Shown: in pieces, positions 1,976 through 9,374 of the stretch | How positions within the stretch are numbered: the first letter of the stretch is position 1 | How the letters are laid out: every line of letters begins with the position of its first letter | Assembly: GCA_903877385.1 (NCBI GenBank) | Contig: CAIRDP010000067.1 | Location: 124,001-188,000 of the forward strand | Direction of reading: 5' to 3' | Source: an uncultured Bacteroidales bacterium | GTDB lineage: Bacteria; Bacteroidota; Bacteroidia; Bacteroidales; FEN-979 | Length of the DNA stretch: 64,000 nucleotides | Position numbers and translations under genes: made by a program | The notes under the pieces: model-generated | Seen by the model: only the letters and a program-made list of their open reading frames with translations | What the model was told of the DNA's origin: nothing | Database searches by the model: none

Positions 1976-2326
1976 ATGAAACCTGTCGTTGCTCACCCTT
2001 CACTCATCGCATACTGTGGCCTATACTGCGGGGCCTGCAGCAAGTACCTTAAAGGCAAATGCCCCGGCTGCCATGAAAATAATAAAGCCGGATGGTGCTC
2101 CGTGAGAACCTGCAATATCCAGAATAATACCCAGAGTTGCGCCGACTGCCTGGAGTTCTCAAACCCTATGAATTGCAAAAAATTCAATAATTTTTTCTCA
2201 AAACTCTTTGCCCTTGTCCTGAAATCCGACAGGGCTGCCTGCATTGACAGAATTAAAAAAGACGGTTACAGGGGGTATTCGGTGTTTATGGCCGAAAATA
2301 AACTGCAGTCTGTAAAACGCAAATGA
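1976..2326 (+). CDS. Small cysteine-rich DUF3795-type protein
   Basis: A 116-residue soluble protein rich in paired cysteines: an N-terminal AYCGLYCGACSKYLKGKCPGC segment, then WCSVRTCNIQ, CADC and NCKKF. This arrangement is that of DUF3795 proteins, common in anaerobes and Bacteroidota and of unknown function; metal or Fe-S binding is an inference from the cysteines only. A near-consensus promoter element (TAATTTCG at 1948-1955, one mismatch to TAnnTTTG) lies just upstream. The gene converges on the FNR-like regulator with only 3 bp between the stops. Confidence 0.8.
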   Translation: MKPVVAHPSLIAYCGLYCGACSKYLKGKCPGCHENNKAGWCSVRTCNIQNNTQSCADCLEFSNPMNCKKFNNFFSKLFALVLKSDRAACIDRIKKDGYRGYSVFMAENKLQSVKRK

Positions 2327-2329
2327 TCA

Positions 2330-3031
2330 TTAACCGTGCTTGCTGATCTTCTGTAGCCGCTCGGGATCATTGAGAGTAATTTTCTTCCCCTCAACGGTAA
2401 TCACTCCCTCATTATGGAATTTTCGCAGGGTATGGATTACATTTTCCTTTGAACATCCGGCAAATTCAGCAAATTCCTGCCTGGAAAGTGAAAGCACGAA
2501 AGCATTATTTGCATAGATGTTCTGGGAAAGGAAGATCAGGATATCGGCAATCCTGCCGTTAACCTGCTTATGCGCAAGACTGATAAAATTAAAAATTGAA
2601 CTGCGGAAGACATCCGTGATGAACTGCAGCATCTTGAACAGGTACAAGGTGTTTCCGAGGGCGATTCGTGTCAGCATCGAAACATCGATTGTACAACCTT
2701 CACAATCCTCGATGGCACATATGGAAAAGAGGTTGAACTCGGCGTTCACGAGGTTTGCACCCCCGATGAGGGCAGGTGCTTTATTAATGGAAAGAATGAG
2801 GTTTTTACCGTTCTCATCCTCATAATTAAACTTGATGATGCCCTTTCTTAAAAAAAGGAAATGGGTTGATTTGGCGCCCTGTTTTAAAATTACTTCCCCT
2901 TTCTTATACCTCAGCTGAACTGATTTTGCCCTGAGTTTCTCAAACTCATCCTTCTGTATGTACTGGCAGCTGATTGTTTTGAAAAGACAATCGTCGCAGT
3001 TGTAATAGCGCTGGTGATCGAGAGTGCTCAT
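2330..3031 (-). CDS. Crp/FNR-family transcription regulator with FNR-like N-terminal cysteines
   Basis: A 233-residue regulator with a cyclic-nucleotide-type beta-roll (about residues 30-120), a dimerisation helix and a C-terminal winged helix-turn-helix (LSRQEFAEFAGCSKENV). The N-terminus carries C12, C15 and C22 (C-x2-C-x6-C), and C105, C110 and C113 follow in the sensor domain. In FNR, a similar N-terminal triplet plus one central cysteine binds an oxygen-labile [4Fe-4S] cluster, so an oxygen- or redox-sensing role is inferred. The recognition helix differs from the E-SR pattern of E. coli FNR, so a different DNA site is expected. It is divergent to the radical SAM cofactor cluster, its most likely target. 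Confidence 0.85.
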   Translation of the reverse strand: MSTLDHQRYYNCDDCLFKTISCQYIQKDEFEKLRAKSVQLRYKKGEVILKQGAKSTHFLFLRKGIIKFNYEDENGKNLILSINKAPALIGGANLVNAEFNLFSICAIEDCEGCTIDVSMLTRIALGNTLYLFKMLQFITDVFRSSIFNFISLAHKQVNGRIADILIFLSQNIYANNAFVLSLSRQEFAEFAGCSKENVIHTLRKFHNEGVITVEGKKITLNDPERLQKISKHG

Positions 3032-3213: not shown

Positions 3214-4017
3214 ATGGATATACAAAGCATTTGCGTTATGGGGGGCTACGGTAAAACCGGTGAACCCGAAAAAGTTGAACGATTTGAGCTGAATATGGGA
3301 GATATCATCAGCATCGTGGGACCCACAGGCTGCGGTAAAACCACCCTGATCAACGATATTGAACTGTTTGCTAACCGGAATACGCCTTCCAACCGCCTGG
3401 TTATGATCAACGGGGAAACGATTAACGAAGATTTTACGTTCGATCCCCGCAAACACCCTATCGCTCTGATATCCCAGCATACCAACTTTCTTTCCGATCT
3501 TCCTGTAGGCGAATTTCTGAAGATCCATGCAAAGGTAAGGGGAGGCGACAATCCTGAAAAGATGATAGCCGAAACCCTGGAGTTTGCCAACCAGCTGACC
3601 GGTGAAGCCATCATCGTACATACCGGGATGACCGAACTTTCGGGCGGACAAACCCGTTCATTGCTGATTGCCGATGCTGTGATCATAGGCAATTCCCCCA
3701 TCATCCTCCTTGATGAAATCGAAAATGCCGGGATTCACAGGACCAAGGCCCTGGAGCTTCTTAAACAGTTCAGGAAGATCTTTGTCTTTGTGACTCACGA
3801 TCCCCACATTGCGCTTTTATCCGACTACAGGATCATCATGAAAAACGGCTCGATGGAGAAACTGATCTGCACTAATCCGGCCGAAAGAAGAGTGGCCGGT
3901 GAACTTGGTAAAATAGACAACCTCATGCTGAATTTCCGTTCGTTCATCCGCAGCGGGCAGGAGATCTCAGAACAGATGATGGTGGAACAAATGGAAACCC
4001 TGAAAATAACAAATTGA
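3214..4017 (+). CDS. Soluble ABC-type ATPase, first gene of a putative metallocofactor cluster
   Basis: A 267-residue stand-alone ATP-binding cassette protein with no membrane segment and no permease gene nearby. All nucleotide motifs are present: Walker A GPTGCGKT (36-43), Q-loop Q88, signature LSGGQ (142-146), Walker B IILLDE (163-168) and H-loop H195. The roughly 65-residue C-terminal tail after the H-loop is not part of a normal cassette. Lack of a permease, and its place 3 bp before a GTPase in a run with a cysteine desulfurase and a HydE-type enzyme, suggest a SufC-like or component-A2-like energising role in cofactor assembly rather than transport. That role is inference. Confidence 0.8.
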   Translation: MDIQSICVMGGYGKTGEPEKVERFELNMGDIISIVGPTGCGKTTLINDIELFANRNTPSNRLVMINGETINEDFTFDPRKHPIALISQHTNFLSDLPVGEFLKIHAKVRGGDNPEKMIAETLEFANQLTGEAIIVHTGMTELSGGQTRSLLIADAVIIGNSPIILLDEIENAGIHRTKALELLKQFRKIFVFVTHDPHIALLSDYRIIMKNGSMEKLICTNPAERRVAGELGKIDNLMLNFRSFIRSGQEISEQMMVEQMETLKITN

Positions 4018-4020
4018 TAT

Positions 4021-4722
4021 ATGAAGCTGATAATATTTGCCGGCCCCCCAACCTGCGGGAAAACCACGGTTATAAGACAGGTCATAAGAAGAATGCTTAA
4101 AAAAGGGCATAAACCGGCATACCTTAAAATAGATGTTTTGTATGCCGATGAAGACAGGATCATTAGCGAAGAGTTTAATATCCCCTCGAGGAAACTGTAT
4201 TCCGGTGAATTATGCCCCGATCATTGCAATGTTGTGGTGATGGATGAGGCTGTTGAATGGGCCGAGAAGTCGGGAAGCGATTTTCTGTTTGTTGAAACAG
4301 CCGGCTTATGCCTTCGCTGTTCGCCGTATATAGAAAATTCCCTGGGTGTTGTTGTTCTTGAAGCAACCAGCGGTATGAACCTGCCCTATAAGATCGGCCC
4401 TATGCTTACCCTTGCCGATATAGCAGTTATCACCAAGATTGACCTGATCTCACAGGCCGAAAGAGAAGTTTTCCGCTACAGGGTCATCGAAGCCGCAAAG
4501 GAGATCACTGTTGTGGAAAGCAATGCGCTCTATGGAATCGGTATAGATCCCATTGTAAGGCATATTGAAAGGTCCGGTGAGATTAAACAGCCCATGTTCT
4601 TAAGAGGCAATCCTCCGGTAGGGACCTGTACGATCTGCGTAGGCAAGAAAGAGATAGGGGCGAAGAACCATTTCGGAGTTCTGCGTACCATGGAGCATGA
4701 CCTGTTTTATATTGGGGAATGA
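4021..4722 (+). CDS. HypB/CobW-like GTPase (putative metallochaperone)
   Basis: A 233-residue P-loop GTPase of the SIMIBI class, which includes HypB, UreG and CobW. Visible are Walker A GPPTCGKT (8-15), the switch II-like ETAG (92-95) and the guanine-specificity motif TKID (138-141). Three cysteine pairs stand out: C65/C69 (CPDHC), C97/C100 (CLRC) and C203/C206 (CTIC), suitable for binding a metal or cluster. The HypB and CobW families deliver nickel, zinc or cobalt to enzymes; the metal here cannot be told. It starts 3 bp after the ABC gene and its stop overlaps the next start by 4 bp (ATGA), indicating translational coupling. Confidence 0.78.
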   Translation: MKLIIFAGPPTCGKTTVIRQVIRRMLKKGHKPAYLKIDVLYADEDRIISEEFNIPSRKLYSGELCPDHCNVVVMDEAVEWAEKSGSDFLFVETAGLCLRCSPYIENSLGVVVLEATSGMNLPYKIGPMLTLADIAVITKIDLISQAEREVFRYRVIEAAKEITVVESNALYGIGIDPIVRHIERSGEIKQPMFLRGNPPVGTCTICVGKKEIGAKNHFGVLRTMEHDLFYIGE

Positions 4723-5897
4723 TGCCGTTGCAAGCAGATCACAAACATATCGTGTATCTTGACAATGCAGCAACAACCTGCATAGACCCGGTTGTTGCCG
4801 GGCTCATCCGCGAGGCGGGAGATGAATTCTACGGTAACGCCTCCAGCCTGCATTCCATGGGAACAATGGCCCATGAGGTACTGGAACAATCGAGGATAAA
4901 GCTTGCCTCACTCCTGGGTGCAAATCCTTCGGAGATCATATTCACGGGAAGCGGAACCGAATCCAATAACCTTGCCTTGAAAGGGGTGGCATTTGCCAAT
5001 GCCTATAAAGGGAGGCATATCGTTGTTTCGGCAATCGAACACGATTGCATTTTACGAGCTGCCCGCTGGCTTGAAACCCAGGGTTTCTTCGTAACCTTTC
5101 TGCCGGTTGACCAGGAGGGTTTTATTGATGTTTCGGCACTGGAGAAAGTTATTAACAGCAAAACCATTCTGGTCTCGGTAATGCATGCCAATAACGAAAT
5201 AGGAACCATTCAACCAGTTGAGGAGATCGGGAGGATTTGCCGGGAGCGGAATATTTATTTCCATTCCGATGCCTGCCAGTCGTTTGGCAAGATCCCGGTG
5301 AATGTACACACTTTATTCACCGACCTGCTGACTGTGAATTCTCATAAGCTTCATGGCCCTAAAGGGGTGGGAGCTTTGTATCTCAGGAACGGTGTTGCTA
5401 TAGAACCCTTGCTTCACGGGGGGGGGCAGGAAAGAGGGATACGTTCATCCACCGAGAACATCCCCGGCATTATCGGGTTTGTAAAAGCTGCCGAAATAGC
5501 CTGCAGGGAAATGGAAGCTGAAATGCACAGGCTTACAGGTCTGCAGGAGAGGATAATTAGCACACTCAGCCACAATATTGAGGGGGTTTATTTCAATGGT
5601 TCGCTAAGCAGCCGTTTGCCAAACAATATCAATTTCTGTATTGAAGGAATGGAAGGAGAAGGGATGAGGCTGCAGTTGATGCTGGATGAGGCAGGCGTTT
5701 GCGTCTCCACAGGATCCGCCTGTTCTTCGAACGACGGGGGAAATCCCTCGCATGTTCTCCAGGCGATCGGTCTCAACCCCTTCCAGGCAAGGGGAGGTAT
5801 AAGGCTCAGCCTGGGCCGTTTCTCAACACAAAAAGACACGGATATCTTTCTGAAAATAATTATTGAAACAGTAAAGCAGCTAAAACCTATCTTCTGA
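4719..5897 (+). CDS. NifS/IscS-type cysteine desulfurase
   Basis: A PLP enzyme converting cysteine to alanine and passing the persulfide sulfur to Fe-S or other sulfur-containing cofactors. The 392-residue length is typical. The PLP lysine is K210 (NSHKLHGPKG) and the sulfur-carrying cysteine is C335 (TGSACSS) in an active loop of group I (NifS/IscS) type. It overlaps the GTPase by 4 bp and precedes the HydE-like gene by 11 bp, so it probably supplies sulfur to a dedicated pathway; no iscU or nifU scaffold gene lies beside it. Confidence 0.92.
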   Translation: MMPLQADHKHIVYLDNAATTCIDPVVAGLIREAGDEFYGNASSLHSMGTMAHEVLEQSRIKLASLLGANPSEIIFTGSGTESNNLALKGVAFANAYKGRHIVVSAIEHDCILRAARWLETQGFFVTFLPVDQEGFIDVSALEKVINSKTILVSVMHANNEIGTIQPVEEIGRICRERNIYFHSDACQSFGKIPVNVHTLFTDLLTVNSHKLHGPKGVGALYLRNGVAIEPLLHGGGQERGIRSSTENIPGIIGFVKAAEIACREMEAEMHRLTGLQERIISTLSHNIEGVYFNGSLSSRLPNNINFCIEGMEGEGMRLQLMLDEAGVCVSTGSACSSNDGGNPSHVLQAIGLNPFQARGGIRLSLGRFSTQKDTDIFLKIIIETVKQLKPIF

Positions 5898-5908
5898 GCA
5901 CAGCGATA

Positions 5909-7021
5909 ATGGGTGGAAGAGAGAAAATAATAACCATTGCCGGCAAAGCCGAACTGACGGCAGGAGATATTCATTACCTGCTGTCGCTTGCTGCCCCTGA
6001 AGAAATTAAATTGCTTGGGGAACTGGCTTATGCAGTTAAAAAGGAGCATGTAAGCAACAGGGTTTATTTCAGGGGCCTGATCGAATTTTCGAACATCTGC
6101 TCAAAGGATTGTCTTTATTGCGGGATCAGGAAGAGCAACTACAGCCCTGAGAGGTTTCTAATGAGCAGGATGGAGATTCTTGACGCGGCTATGTTTGCCC
6201 AAGCCAACCGCTATGGATCTGTTGTGCTGCAGTCGGGCGAGAGGACCGACCAGGCTTTTATCGATTTTGTTTGTGATATCGTAAGCAGTATTAAAACTGC
6301 GACTCAGGGGAAACTGGGTATTACACTCTCATGCGGGGAGCAAAGCGAAGAGACTTACCGCAGGTTTTTTGAAGCAGGCGCTCACCGATATCTTCTCAGG
6401 ATTGAATCTTCGGACCGGGAGCTTTACGGGATGCTGCATCCACAGGACCGGCATCACGACTTCGATGCCCGCCTTAACTGCCTCAGGCTGCTTAAGAAAA
6501 CAGGTTTCCAGCTGGGGACAGGGGTGATGGTAGGACTTCCTTTTCAGGCTATAGAACACCTGGTGGGCGATCTTTTTTTCCTTAAAAAGATTGATGCGGA
6601 TATGGTTGGTCTTGGACCCTATATCGAGCATTCGCAGACTCCTTTGTACCTTTTCCGCGATCAGTTGTGGCCATCGCAGGAAAGGCTGGTAATGACCCTG
6701 AAAATGATCGCTGTCCTCAGGATCATGATGAAAGATATCAATATTGCTTCGGCCACAGCTTTGCAGGCCATCGATGGCTTTGGACGTGAAAGGGCCTTGA
6801 AACTCGGCGCCAATATTATCATGCCAAATCTCAGCCCGAAAAAACACCGCAAAGACTACCTCTTGTATGAAGACAAGCCTTGTATTGAAGAAGAGAGGGA
6901 GGAATGCAGAGATTGCCTGGAGATCCGGGTCAAACTTACAGGAGATGAAATAGGATATGATGCCTGGGGGGACTCAAGGCATTTTATTAATAGAAACCAT
7001 AAACCCCAACCCTATGTTTAA
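5909..7021 (+). CDS. HydE-type radical SAM enzyme
   Basis: A 370-residue radical SAM enzyme of the HydE/PylB/BioB branch. The SAM-cluster cysteines are C64, C68 and C71 (CSKDCLYC). A second cysteine set at C325, C333 and C336 (C-x7-C-x2-C) matches the accessory cluster found in many HydE proteins. In [FeFe] hydrogenase maturation, HydE works with HydF and HydG on the H-cluster. None of hydA, hydF or hydG is in this window, so this may be a HydE paralogue serving another cofactor. PylB-like chemistry cannot be excluded. It overlaps the following Fe-S gene by 8 bp. Confidence 0.82.
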   Translation: MGGREKIITIAGKAELTAGDIHYLLSLAAPEEIKLLGELAYAVKKEHVSNRVYFRGLIEFSNICSKDCLYCGIRKSNYSPERFLMSRMEILDAAMFAQANRYGSVVLQSGERTDQAFIDFVCDIVSSIKTATQGKLGITLSCGEQSEETYRRFFEAGAHRYLLRIESSDRELYGMLHPQDRHHDFDARLNCLRLLKKTGFQLGTGVMVGLPFQAIEHLVGDLFFLKKIDADMVGLGPYIEHSQTPLYLFRDQLWPSQERLVMTLKMIAVLRIMMKDINIASATALQAIDGFGRERALKLGANIIMPNLSPKKHRKDYLLYEDKPCIEEEREECRDCLEIRVKLTGDEIGYDAWGDSRHFINRNHKPQPYV

Positions 7022-7703
7022 AGAAAACAATGTTCTTACCGAAGTTGTACCTGCCCTTCCCGGCCTGGATTGCGGCGCATGCGGATTCCGCACATGTACG
7101 CTTTTTGGTGATCACCTGCTGAAAACCCCGGCTGACCTTAAACTTTGCATCCATATCGAAAGCCGTAAACCACAGCTTACCGACCCTGTGGCATGCCTGA
7201 GCTGTCACCATGCCGGATTGGGTGAGAAACTCGGGTGGAAGGACAACCTTCAGCGTGAATTTGATTTCATACTGGATTCATTTGATAATGAACCCGGACC
7301 CCGGGAAACCATTCTTCCGTATAACCCGGCCCTGGTGAAAGACCTGGGCGTGAAGAAGGATGACATTATGATTGGCCGTCCCATGGGCATGTCGTGTGGC
7401 TGTCCCGTGACGCATTGCGGAATAGTCACTTGGGTTGATGCACGCAACGGAGTTATCAACTGGTGCGTGACGGGCCCCCTGAAACCCCGTTTACAGGGCT
7501 TTATTGATATAGGCTATTATGTAGCCCAGGGGTACGAGGGACTTATAAAGGAAACCAACAAGGAAATCAAGCTCGGCATGCGCTATTGGTTCCTTCCCCG
7601 CCGTTGCATGCTTCAATGGAGGCATAGCGGCCTTGTAAATGCCGTAACCAAGCTCAAAGATGGCGGATACAAAGTTAGGATAGAGGGTTTGTTCATCGGC
7701 TAA
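7014..7703 (+). CDS. Multi-cysteine Fe-S binding protein closing the cofactor cluster
   Basis: A 229-residue cytosolic protein. The ATG at 7014 is preferred over an upstream in-frame ATG at 6957 because the conserved-looking sequence begins there and the overlap with the HydE-like gene shrinks to 8 bp. It begins with an Fe-S domain of the kind seen in CODH/ACS and Rnf subunits: C20, C23, C28 and C45. Further cysteines occur at C61/C64, C128/C130/C135, C151 and C198, with an unusual RRCMLQWRHSG segment near the end. I do not recognise a named family for the C-terminal part. A carrier, scaffold or electron-donor role for the HydE-like enzyme is inference from position. Confidence 0.75.
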   Translation: MFKENNVLTEVVPALPGLDCGACGFRTCTLFGDHLLKTPADLKLCIHIESRKPQLTDPVACLSCHHAGLGEKLGWKDNLQREFDFILDSFDNEPGPRETILPYNPALVKDLGVKKDDIMIGRPMGMSCGCPVTHCGIVTWVDARNGVINWCVTGPLKPRLQGFIDIGYYVAQGYEGLIKETNKEIKLGMRYWFLPRRCMLQWRHSGLVNAVTKLKDGGYKVRIEGLFIG

Positions 7704-7791: not shown

Positions 7792-7799
7792 TACTTTTG
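7792..7799 (+). promoter_or_regulatory. Promoter -7 element of the cobalamin riboswitch transcript
   Basis: TACTTTTG matches the Bacteroidota TAnnTTTG consensus exactly and lies directly before the riboswitch aptamer, so transcription should begin at about 7803-7806. No good -33 TTG is seen at the right distance. Confidence 0.5.
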
Positions 7800-7802
7800 C
7801 AG

Positions 7803-7981
7803 CATGCCAGTGGTACTTTCACCGATATCCTTCGGTGAAGTTGAAAAGGGAACCCGGTTGGAAACCGGGGCTGTGCCCGCAGCTGTAAGTTCAAAAGCGG
7901 CTTCCGTATTCTCCTCGTCACTGTTCCGTTTCAGGAATGGGAAGACTTCGGAAACCAGAACAAGCCAGAAGACCTGCCCCA
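7803..7981 (+). promoter_or_regulatory. Cobalamin (adenosylcobalamin-type) riboswitch
   Basis: This holds the conserved cobalamin aptamer landmarks in order: a stem made by TTTCACC and GGTGAAG, the AAAGGGAA box followed by a CCGGTT/AACCGG hairpin, the core GGCTGTGCCCGCAGCTGTAA (7868-7887), a TCACTG element, the TGGGAAG box, and the closing B12 box AGCCAGAAGACCTGCC (7963-7978). The 345 bp gap before the next gene is otherwise empty. A downstream hairpin TTAACTTT/AAAGGTTAA (7993-8015) has no U-run, which suggests control of translation rather than termination. It should repress the downstream gene when B12 is plentiful. Confidence 0.93.
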
Positions 7982-8048
7982 GGCTGAAAAAATTAACTTT
8001 CGGGTCAAAGGTTAATGAATAAGTCAGTAACTAATATCCGTTTAATCC

Positions 8049-9374
8049 ATGAAATCGAAAAATTCATTATTAACTGCTGTCATTTGCTCATTGCTGATTT
8101 TCACTATTAACTGTAACGCCCAGCTAAACGCCTACGTAAGGCAGGTGATAACCTCCAATTCGGGAAGGTTTGAATACGCACCCCCGTACGCTGATTATGT
8201 TACATTACAATCGTACAACCCTCTGAGTAAGAAAGTAAATACTTTTGGTACGATATATACTCAGTCTTCCCAATCCATTGTGATAAGCGGGAATTACGGT
8301 TTTTTTGCTGCCCAGGATTCCATTGTCAAGTATGATCTGAACAACTTTAAGCGCATGGCTGCCATTGCCGATTCAGGCCTGAACCGGATGATAGTTTATA
8401 AGGGCAAACTGCTTGTTTCAAAACAATACCCTGTGAACAGTGATTATCTTGAAGTCCTGGATACGGCAAATCTCTCCCTTATTGCCGAAGTTAAGGGGAT
8501 ATCGGGCGATTGCGGCGGCATAAGCAGTTTAAACGATACCGTTTATGTTGCGGTGAACCGCGGCTACCTGGGAACCGAGGGAAAACTTGCTGTGATTGAT
8601 CCTTCATCATGGACCCTGAAAGCAGAAGTTAATTTTGGCCATAAAGCGGTAGGCATCATGGAGATGTATATGTACAACAACCAGATCTTCTCAGTGAATA
8701 AAACCCCTTACGGGGTCATTGATACCGGCAGCGTTACCGTATACACGCCAGCGAACCGCAGCTTCACCAATGTCTTCCTTCCGTTTACTGTGGGTGCGGG
8801 TTCCGGGATCAAAGACAGCCTTCTGTACCTCGGGCTGAATTATGGCATAGGTTCATTCAATATGAATACTCTTGCAATTGCAGATACTACTATCATAAAA
8901 GACCCGGGTTCATTGGTTTACACTTACATTATTTCGTCGGCCGTAGATACCCTTGAGGGAAGGATTTATACCAACATTGGAGATTATCAGAATGCAGGGT
9001 ACTGCCTGGTGACTTCAATAAAGGGGGACTCCATCGACACTTACCCGACAGGGATTTCTTCAGATGCTGTGGCCGTGGATACCCGTTTTTACGGTACCGG
9101 GGTACAAAACAATACAGCAAAGGAACTTGACATCAAACTATACCCCAATCCAGTCCAGGACCGGCTGAAGATCAGCTTTGAAAATAATACCAGACTTACT
9201 TCACTGAATGTAACGGATATCAGCGGGCGGGAAATACTGGAATTCAAACCGGGAAACCAGCAGGGTACTTATTTTGAATTACCCGTTAATTCCCTCGCTC
9301 CGGGTGTATACTACCTTATGATCAGCACAACGGAAGGCCGCATGTTCAGAACATTTGCGGTCGCTGCCCATTAA
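8049..9374 (+). CDS. BtuG-like secreted beta-propeller with T9SS sorting domain
   Basis: A 441-residue exported protein. It has an N-terminal signal peptide (about residues 1-24), a YncE/DUF5074-like seven-bladed propeller body with repeated D-x-LN, VLDTANLSL and AVIDPSS blade signatures, and a type A T9SS C-terminal domain from about residue 364 (KLYPNPV...) ending AVAAH. It directly follows a cobalamin riboswitch. In Bacteroides, BtuG is a surface propeller that binds B12 tightly and hands it to BtuB; BtuG is a lipoprotein, whereas this one appears to reach the surface through T9SS. The next gene is convergent, so it is probably transcribed alone. The B12-binding role is inferred from the riboswitch and fold. 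Confidence 0.82.
   Translation: MKSKNSLLTAVICSLLIFTINCNAQLNAYVRQVITSNSGRFEYAPPYADYVTLQSYNPLSKKVNTFGTIYTQSSQSIVISGNYGFFAAQDSIVKYDLNNFKRMAAIADSGLNRMIVYKGKLLVSKQYPVNSDYLEVLDTANLSLIAEVKGISGDCGGISSLNDTVYVAVNRGYLGTEGKLAVIDPSSWTLKAEVNFGHKAVGIMEMYMYNNQIFSVNKTPYGVIDTGSVTVYTPANRSFTNVFLPFTVGAGSGIKDSLLYLGLNYGIGSFNMNTLAIADTTIIKDPGSLVYTYIISSAVDTLEGRIYTNIGDYQNAGYCLVTSIKGDSIDTYPTGISSDAVAVDTRFYGTGVQNNTAKELDIKLYPNPVQDRLKISFENNTRLTSLNVTDISGREILEFKPGNQQGTYFELPVNSLAPGVYYLMISTTEGRMFRTFAVAAH

Follow-up and report, generated by a model that had tools for sequence, protein, structure and literature searches.

A desulfurase-containing Bacteroidales operon related to the methanogen ATPase/GTPase/COG2000 gene set, with a HydE gene in one genus

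Why does a gene for HydE, a radical S-adenosylmethionine (SAM) enzyme of the [FeFe]-hydrogenase maturase type, lie in a compact gene cluster that contains no hydrogenase gene? The question is raised by a five-gene locus in the window, the 64,000-nucleotide stretch analyzed here (contig CAIRDP010000067.1, positions 124,001 to 188,000) of an uncultured Bacteroidales bacterium. The locus encodes a soluble ATP-binding cassette (ABC) ATPase, a GTPase, a cysteine desulfurase (NifS), HydE, and an iron-sulfur protein (FeS), and the original prediction described it as a cofactor-assembly cluster built around HydE but without a hydrogenase. Gene content, homology, conservation, and neighborhoods, all observed directly, place the center elsewhere: four of the genes are a set kept in scattered relatives, and three of these four are akin to genes found beside methanogen coenzyme M (CoM) genes.

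The four-gene core in Bacteroidales

The FeS gene occurs in 26 of 393 genomes searched from the order, spread over 21 of 206 genera. In 26 stretches from 24 FeS-gene genomes other than the window genome (G000) and its congener G002, the ABC ATPase, GTPase, NifS, and FeS genes stand together 21 times, three times with breaks (L108, L119, and L120). The remaining five stretches comprise one with NifS and FeS only (L100), one with part of FeS only (L115), and three with the ABC-GTPase-FeS trio but no NifS (L116, L117, and L118); the open reading frame (ORF) picker behind these calls skips or splits some genes, such as NifS in L041. HydE is found in 0 of the 26 stretches (tblastn, 1e-4). A recurring set of desulfurase, metal-type GTPase, ABC ATPase, and Fe-S protein, as originally predicted, is thus borne out, but it is not built around HydE: four of the five genes stay together in other genomes and HydE does not. 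Identity to the window proteins among full-length copies of the NifS-type operon is ~81 to 86% for the GTPase, 67 to 77% for the ABC ATPase, 63 to 75% for FeS, and 55 to 62% for NifS, the last range excluding L119 and L120. A phylum sample of 296 genomes yielded weak FeS matches in 12 other genomes, over the Fe-S domain only. Judged from gene content and homology, the ancestral form of the operon most likely consisted of an ABC ATPase, a HypB/UreG-like GTPase, NifS, and a COG2000-type Fe-S protein.

In the window itself, the five ORFs are real, share one strand, and are tightly packed, being separated in turn by a 3 bp gap, a 4-bp overlap, an 11 bp gap, and an 8-bp overlap (Table 1). The last overlap would be 65 bp should FeS start at 6957; a start at 7014 is likely, because the FeS ORF is 229 aa in G006 and ~222 to 232 aa in most other genomes, counted from the first start codon. 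The arrangement goes beyond coincidence: the same five-gene order recurs in G002 and G006, two genomes of the same genus, with nonsynonymous divergence (dN) of 0.02 to 0.18 and near-saturated synonymous divergence (dS) across the three. Domain scans bear out the predicted families, with some limits on the names. The GTPase falls under the HypB cut-off (TIGR00073, 46.9 against 121.2 bits) and under that of UreG as well. The desulfurase has TIGR03402 as its best family, yet scores below the cut-off of 530.75 bits, and we term it NifS/IscS-type because NifS is the best family despite this score. HydE exceeds its equivalog cut-off of 254.6 bits. The five genes match families other than the Fe-S scaffolds, and no SufB/SufD- or IscU-like gene is present in the operon.

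The cysteines expected from the original reading (11 in FeS and three pairs in the GTPase, counted in translations) are all present. FeS combines a [4Fe-4S]-type PF04060 domain with a beta-rich domain that carries invariant C130xxxH134 and C198xxxxxH204 motifs (229-aa numbering). In an alignment of 55 of the 58 available sequences (three near-copies omitted; lengths 200 to 260 aa), 22 residues never vary, among them C20, C23, C28, C45, C130, H134, C198, and H204. An AlphaFold model built from these 55 sequences reaches a mean predicted local distance difference test score (pLDDT) of 82.4. In the GTPase, residues C63, D65, H66, C95, R97, C98, C202, and C205 (L118 numbering) are invariant in 13 sequences, and these Cys/His motifs resemble that of UreG. 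Compared with the HypB/UreG metallochaperones, the window GTPase has the same G domain family and Cys/His motifs but scores below both cut-offs and adjoins an ABC ATPase gene.

A Crp/Fnr regulator homologue is found in 22 of the 26 neighborhoods with calls for all of ABC, GTPase, and FeS (29 examined), and an Rrf2 homologue in 12 of these 26, one of them confirmed by Pfam. No shared palindrome emerged between regulator and ABC genes in 18 intergenic regions: 4-base arms did no better than shuffles, and 5-base arms occurred in no more than 4 regions, with up to 3 in shuffles. Beside the regulator of the window lies a small Cys-rich protein, and by eye G006 has one like it in the corresponding position. 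The riboswitch directly downstream of the five genes precedes a 441-aa protein that by eye resembles a secreted beta-propeller, and a homologue of this protein adjoins the operon in G002 and G006.

Table 1. Features of the five-gene locus and its immediate flanks (window positions; scores from family scans)
Feature	Position	Strand	Family evidence
Small Cys-rich protein, adjoining the regulator	1976..2326		DUF3795
Crp/Fnr-family regulator, divergent	2330..3031	-	PF13545 and PF00027 above cut-off; N-terminal Cys motif by eye
ABC ATPase, soluble	3214..4017	+	PF00005 (ABC_tran), 61 bits
HypB/UreG/CobW-like GTPase	4021..4722	+	PF02492, 45.3 bits; motifs CPDH, LCxRC, CxxC
NifS/IscS-type cysteine desulfurase	4719..5897	+	TIGR03402, 454.4 bits; PF00266, 262 bits
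HydE-type radical SAM enzyme	5909..7021	+	TIGR03956, 335.1 bits
COG2000-type Fe-S protein (FeS)	ORF 6957..7703; probable gene 7014..7703 (229 aa)	+	PF04060, 33.9 bits
Cobalamin riboswitch and the following 441-aa protein, directly downstream of the locus	7794..9374		Rfam RF00174, 97.5 bits

HydE in the operon and in the genome

The lack of HydA, HydF, and HydG noted originally holds for the locus but not for the organism. The 4.3-Mb window genome (98% completeness; window on contig C67) encodes HydF on C15 (491.1 bits) and HydG on C38 (500.6 bits; cut-off 312.15). Seven places match PF02906, the domain of the hydrogenase large subunit, and all lie on C63; C51 carries another HydE (about 344.6 to 344.9 bits). 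Hence, this is not a HydE-bearing organism without a hydrogenase. Compared with maturase HydE, the window enzyme shares the equivalog-level score, both cluster motifs, and the pocket residues considered below, but its gene is distant from hydF, hydG, and hydA, which are all encoded elsewhere, and it forms a separate clade.

Among 61 genomes around the window, two HydE places above the cut-off are found only in G000, G002, and G006. Searches with HydE and with PF02906 covered 30 genomes each, and 27 gave a match in each; G048 and G481 carry the operon, yet show no HydE match (E 1e-30) and no PF02906 match (E 1e-20). A further genome (G458, 90% complete) has a HydE of 370 bits (L206) and no PF02906 match at E 1e-20; a hydrogenase may be lacking there, or the assembly may have a gap.

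Trees of 60 and 79 sequences, which omit sequences under set lengths and a single copy of the window HydE (the larger tree also L231), join the window HydE with those of G002 and G006 in a clade with support of 100/100 and a long stem. In the 79-sequence tree, this clade lies inside the main Bacteroidota HydE clade (97/95), with Bacteroidales sequences L009 and L010 outside. The genus's other HydE is apart from it and groups with sequences of its own family at weak resolution, bearing out a separate HydE branch in the operon. That the window HydE arose by recent duplication of the genus's other copy was considered and rejected, as both trees separate the two. For the simple alternative of ordinary hydrogenase maturation, the outcome is divided: hydA, hydF, and hydG do lie elsewhere in the genome, but the window HydE forms a long branch of its own inside the main Bacteroidota clade. 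From these distributions and trees, HydE is probably a later, genus-level addition to the operon, inserted between the NifS and FeS genes.

Does the added enzyme still work? Across the three genomes, HydE shows dN of 0.14 to 0.18 and dS of 1.3 to 2.6, and the window copy has both predicted cluster motifs, C64/C68/C71 and C325/C333/C336. The pocket of Thermotoga HydE is lined by Q107, T134, R155, R159, E161, R180, M224, T269, and Y303, plus T268. The window HydE keeps the nine residues; at position 268, its clade and 6 of 51 other sequences have Ala instead of Thr. The window HydE also has the second-cluster cysteines, as do 49 of 51 others. Given the low dN against dS and the retained pocket residues and second-cluster cysteines, the window HydE is under purifying selection and probably active. 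Its clade differs at seven positions that at least 90% of the other sequences share, including Y83, which is invariant in the other 58 sequences; the genus's other HydE, tested likewise, has six clade-specific changes. All three second-cluster cysteines of that other HydE are lost in all six of its copies (L039:7879-8976, L042, L220, L227, L229, and L233).

Relatives beside coenzyme M genes and in other lineages

An ATPase, a Ni2+ binding GTPase, and a COG2000 protein often colocalize with CoM genes in methanogens, according to section 6 of PMC12068725 (the set also appears in its Fig. 2 legend), from which the COG2000 label used here is borrowed rather than taken from a COG search. The order ABC-GTPase-FeS is common to this trio and the window locus. 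FeS proteins from NifS-type operons and from methanogens are homologous by hhalign (99.9%, E 2e-31, 202 aligned columns at 32% identity), and the GTPases are homologous by tblastn and tree. The window locus differs in having NifS and HydE between GTPase and FeS, in showing no adjacent CoM genes, and in its GTPase: the 24 GTPases of NifS-type Bacteroidales, including that of L116 without adjacent NifS, group in a single clade (100/100) on a very long stem, in a tree that carries a tool warning on long branches. None of the 26 Bacteroidales stretches has CoM biosynthesis genes beside the operon by eye and partial family scans, with genome-wide searches for cysteate synthase (Cs) and ComA not included.

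Cs (589 bits, cut-off 324.9), ComD, ComE, and MMP16 neighbor the trio in Methanolobus vulcani (L145), all above cut-off, and ComA precedes it in one Methanothermococcus and one Methanobacteriaceae record (L131 and L135; 338.2 and 333.1 bits, cut-off 280). Among 36 genomes of the Methanothermococcus phylum group, the GTPase is found in 18, all of them among the 32 with ComA, and ComA lies directly upstream of ABC at 14 of the 18 loci. The 196 genomes of the Methanolobus phylum group have the GTPase (E 1e-50) in 49, at 59 places. The 18 with a GTPase identity of at least 74% all run Cs-ABC-GTPase-FeS, and 12 further loci of this group with 44 to 49% identity have no Cs within their flanks.

How far does the GTPase/ABC pair extend beyond these two settings? 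A scan of a named-genome collection with the GTPase alignment gave 548 confirmed relatives. Among the best 80 loci, a GTPase-cluster gene was called at 72 and an ABC-cluster gene at 67, and besides six GTPase-only loci, considered below, three kinds are seen. One has the FeS protein and occurs in methanogens and other Bacteroidales. Another, 24 of the best 80, has a protein with DUF1858 and SBP_bac_6 domains and occurs in Clostridia, Fusobacteria, Deferribacteres, and others; it is a sister system. The third has a shorter protein resembling solute-binding proteins (SBP), in some cases near an NMT1-type transporter. A gene resembling the hybrid cluster protein (HCP) is near the GTPase/ABC pair of the DUF1858 kind in 8 of the best 80 loci by eye, and the HCP of L118 was confirmed by a family scan. 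A NifS-like gene recurs in fewer than 3 of these 80. Many of the DUF1858 and SBP_bac_6 proteins (among L170 to L200) look cytosolic, and a Crp/Fnr-like gene is present at 5 loci of this kind. The Bacteroidales stretch L118 contains an ABC-GTPase-FeS set of the FeS type, the HCP gene, and another GTPase/ABC pair, this one SBP-type.

What the locus may do

We read the locus as a NifS-coupled, much diverged Bacteroidales branch of the methanogen ABC/GTPase/COG2000 trio, in which a metal-loaded Fe-S protein handles one-sulfur units and into which HydE was inserted in this genus, and we give this reading a probability of about 0.42. The scheme that we infer for metal loading, sulfur handling, sulfite, and the origin of HydE is as follows. 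The Fe-S protein would be the working enzyme, with a [4Fe-4S] cluster on four invariant cysteines and a second metal site at C130, H134, C198, and H204. The GTPase and the ABC ATPase would load or activate its metal center, spending GTP and ATP, and the loaded protein would handle a one-sulfur unit. In methanogens, it may hand a sulfite-level species to Cs or ComA; in Bacteroidales, NifS may supply it with sulfur from cysteine. HydE, of separate and perhaps other Bacteroidales origin, would have been placed between NifS and the Fe-S gene.

ComA uses sulfite. Cs adds sulfite as well, as described in PMC12713407. The trio thus adjoins two sulfite-using enzymes of different families, one from each route to CoM, and this position beside unrelated enzymes allows a specific, testable guess about its role. 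Scattered sulfur genes near the Bacteroidales operons also suggest a connection with sulfur: cysK above cut-off with a serine acetyltransferase that falls short of the cysE cut-off in L114, an O-acetylhomoserine sulfhydrylase in L111, CDO_I cupins above the gathering score in L099 and L102, and a weak CDO_I match within the operon of L120. Among the papers listed in literature searches, titles and abstract openings contain nothing proposing sulfite supply by the trio, nor anything on this system under HydE pocket residues, sulfite source, HydE with a desulfurase, or HCP-linked GTPase/ABC pairs; the main text of PMC12068725 does not mention sulfite.

Several observations weigh against this interpretation. 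The sulfur-gene neighbors are few and scattered. ComA is more than 120 kb distant at the other 4 of the 18 trio loci in the Methanothermococcus group, and the GTPase is missing from 14 of its 32 ComA-positive genomes. At six loci of ANME and other Methanosarcinales (L151 to L154, L162, and L165), the GTPase is present with no ABC or FeS called. No trio is named in the M. acetivorans com region (MA3296-MA3299) as laid out in passages of PMC12713407 and PMC12068725, and PMC6286981 puts forward reverse sulfite reductase as an alternative sulfite source. GTPase/ABC pairs with SBP-like proteins in place of FeS, and their HCP-like neighbors, are unexplained by the sulfite idea. Fold searches with two FeS models gave no PDB match at E 0.001. 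Two candidate partners were also rejected. COG1900/MMP16 (PF01837) is in 0 of 27 Bacteroidales genomes with the FeS gene and in 1 of 40 other Bacteroidales genomes, only some of which were screened for the FeS gene. The sulfonolipid cysteate synthase CapA, as a Bacteroidales sulfite user, is above cut-off in 0 of 393 genomes and below cut-off at E 1e-80 in 9, two of which (G042 and G491) carry the FeS gene.

HydE may instead be a second maturase for [FeFe]-hydrogenase that was carried into an unrelated operon and serves the hydrogenases encoded elsewhere, an account that we consider possible, if short of probable. The above-cut-off score, the HydF, HydG, and hydrogenase-domain places of the genome, and the kept pocket residues (T268 as Ala) all agree with it, as do second-cluster cysteines that are missing from the genus's other HydE. 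However, three congeners (G001, G003, and G005) hold hydrogenase-domain places with a single HydE, so a second copy is unneeded there, and the window HydE overlaps the FeS gene within a sulfur/metal operon retained in three diverged genomes. Its seven clade-specific changes, Y83 among them, also argue against a spare maturase, though the genus's other HydE has six.

The four-gene core, too, can be read differently, as an operon for Fe-S cluster assembly or repair in which NifS provides sulfide, FeS is the scaffold, the ABC ATPase and GTPase act in transfer, and Rrf2 and Crp/Fnr regulators exert control. SUF combines a desulfurase with an ABC ATPase without permease, and the operon shares the first with SUF and ISC and the second with SUF. 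NifS alongside a PF04060 protein, the Rrf2 and Crp/Fnr frequencies, and HCP-like genes near related pairs are in keeping with such an operon, which we nevertheless regard as unlikely given the missing SufB, SufD, and IscU, a NifS-like gene that does not recur in at least 3 of the best 80 of the 548 loci, and methanogen versions located in CoM clusters. It is more doubtful still that the trio donates sulfur for a final thiolation of the MMP16/COG1900 type rather than supplying sulfite: MMP16 does lie within the Methanolobus L145 cluster, and its sequence cluster is found in 5 of the best 80 loci, but PF01837 is absent from all searched FeS-gene Bacteroidales, and in methanogens the trio is mostly preceded directly by Cs or ComA.

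The NifS-coupled branch of the methanogen trio, as we prefer to read the locus, has a bolder version, in which the trio would be an anaerobic source of sulfite-level sulfur and HydE would give the metal site an organometallic iron unit in this genus, a use of HydE chemistry outside hydrogenase; this we hold to be a very long shot. The role of the ATPase/GTPase/COG2000 set in CoM clusters is stated as unknown in PMC12068725, and the source of sulfite in methanogens is open enough for PMC6286981 to propose reverse sulfite reductase. The Bacteroidales version with a cysteine desulfurase, and with HydE in one genus, is a bacterial system in which the same proteins can be studied.

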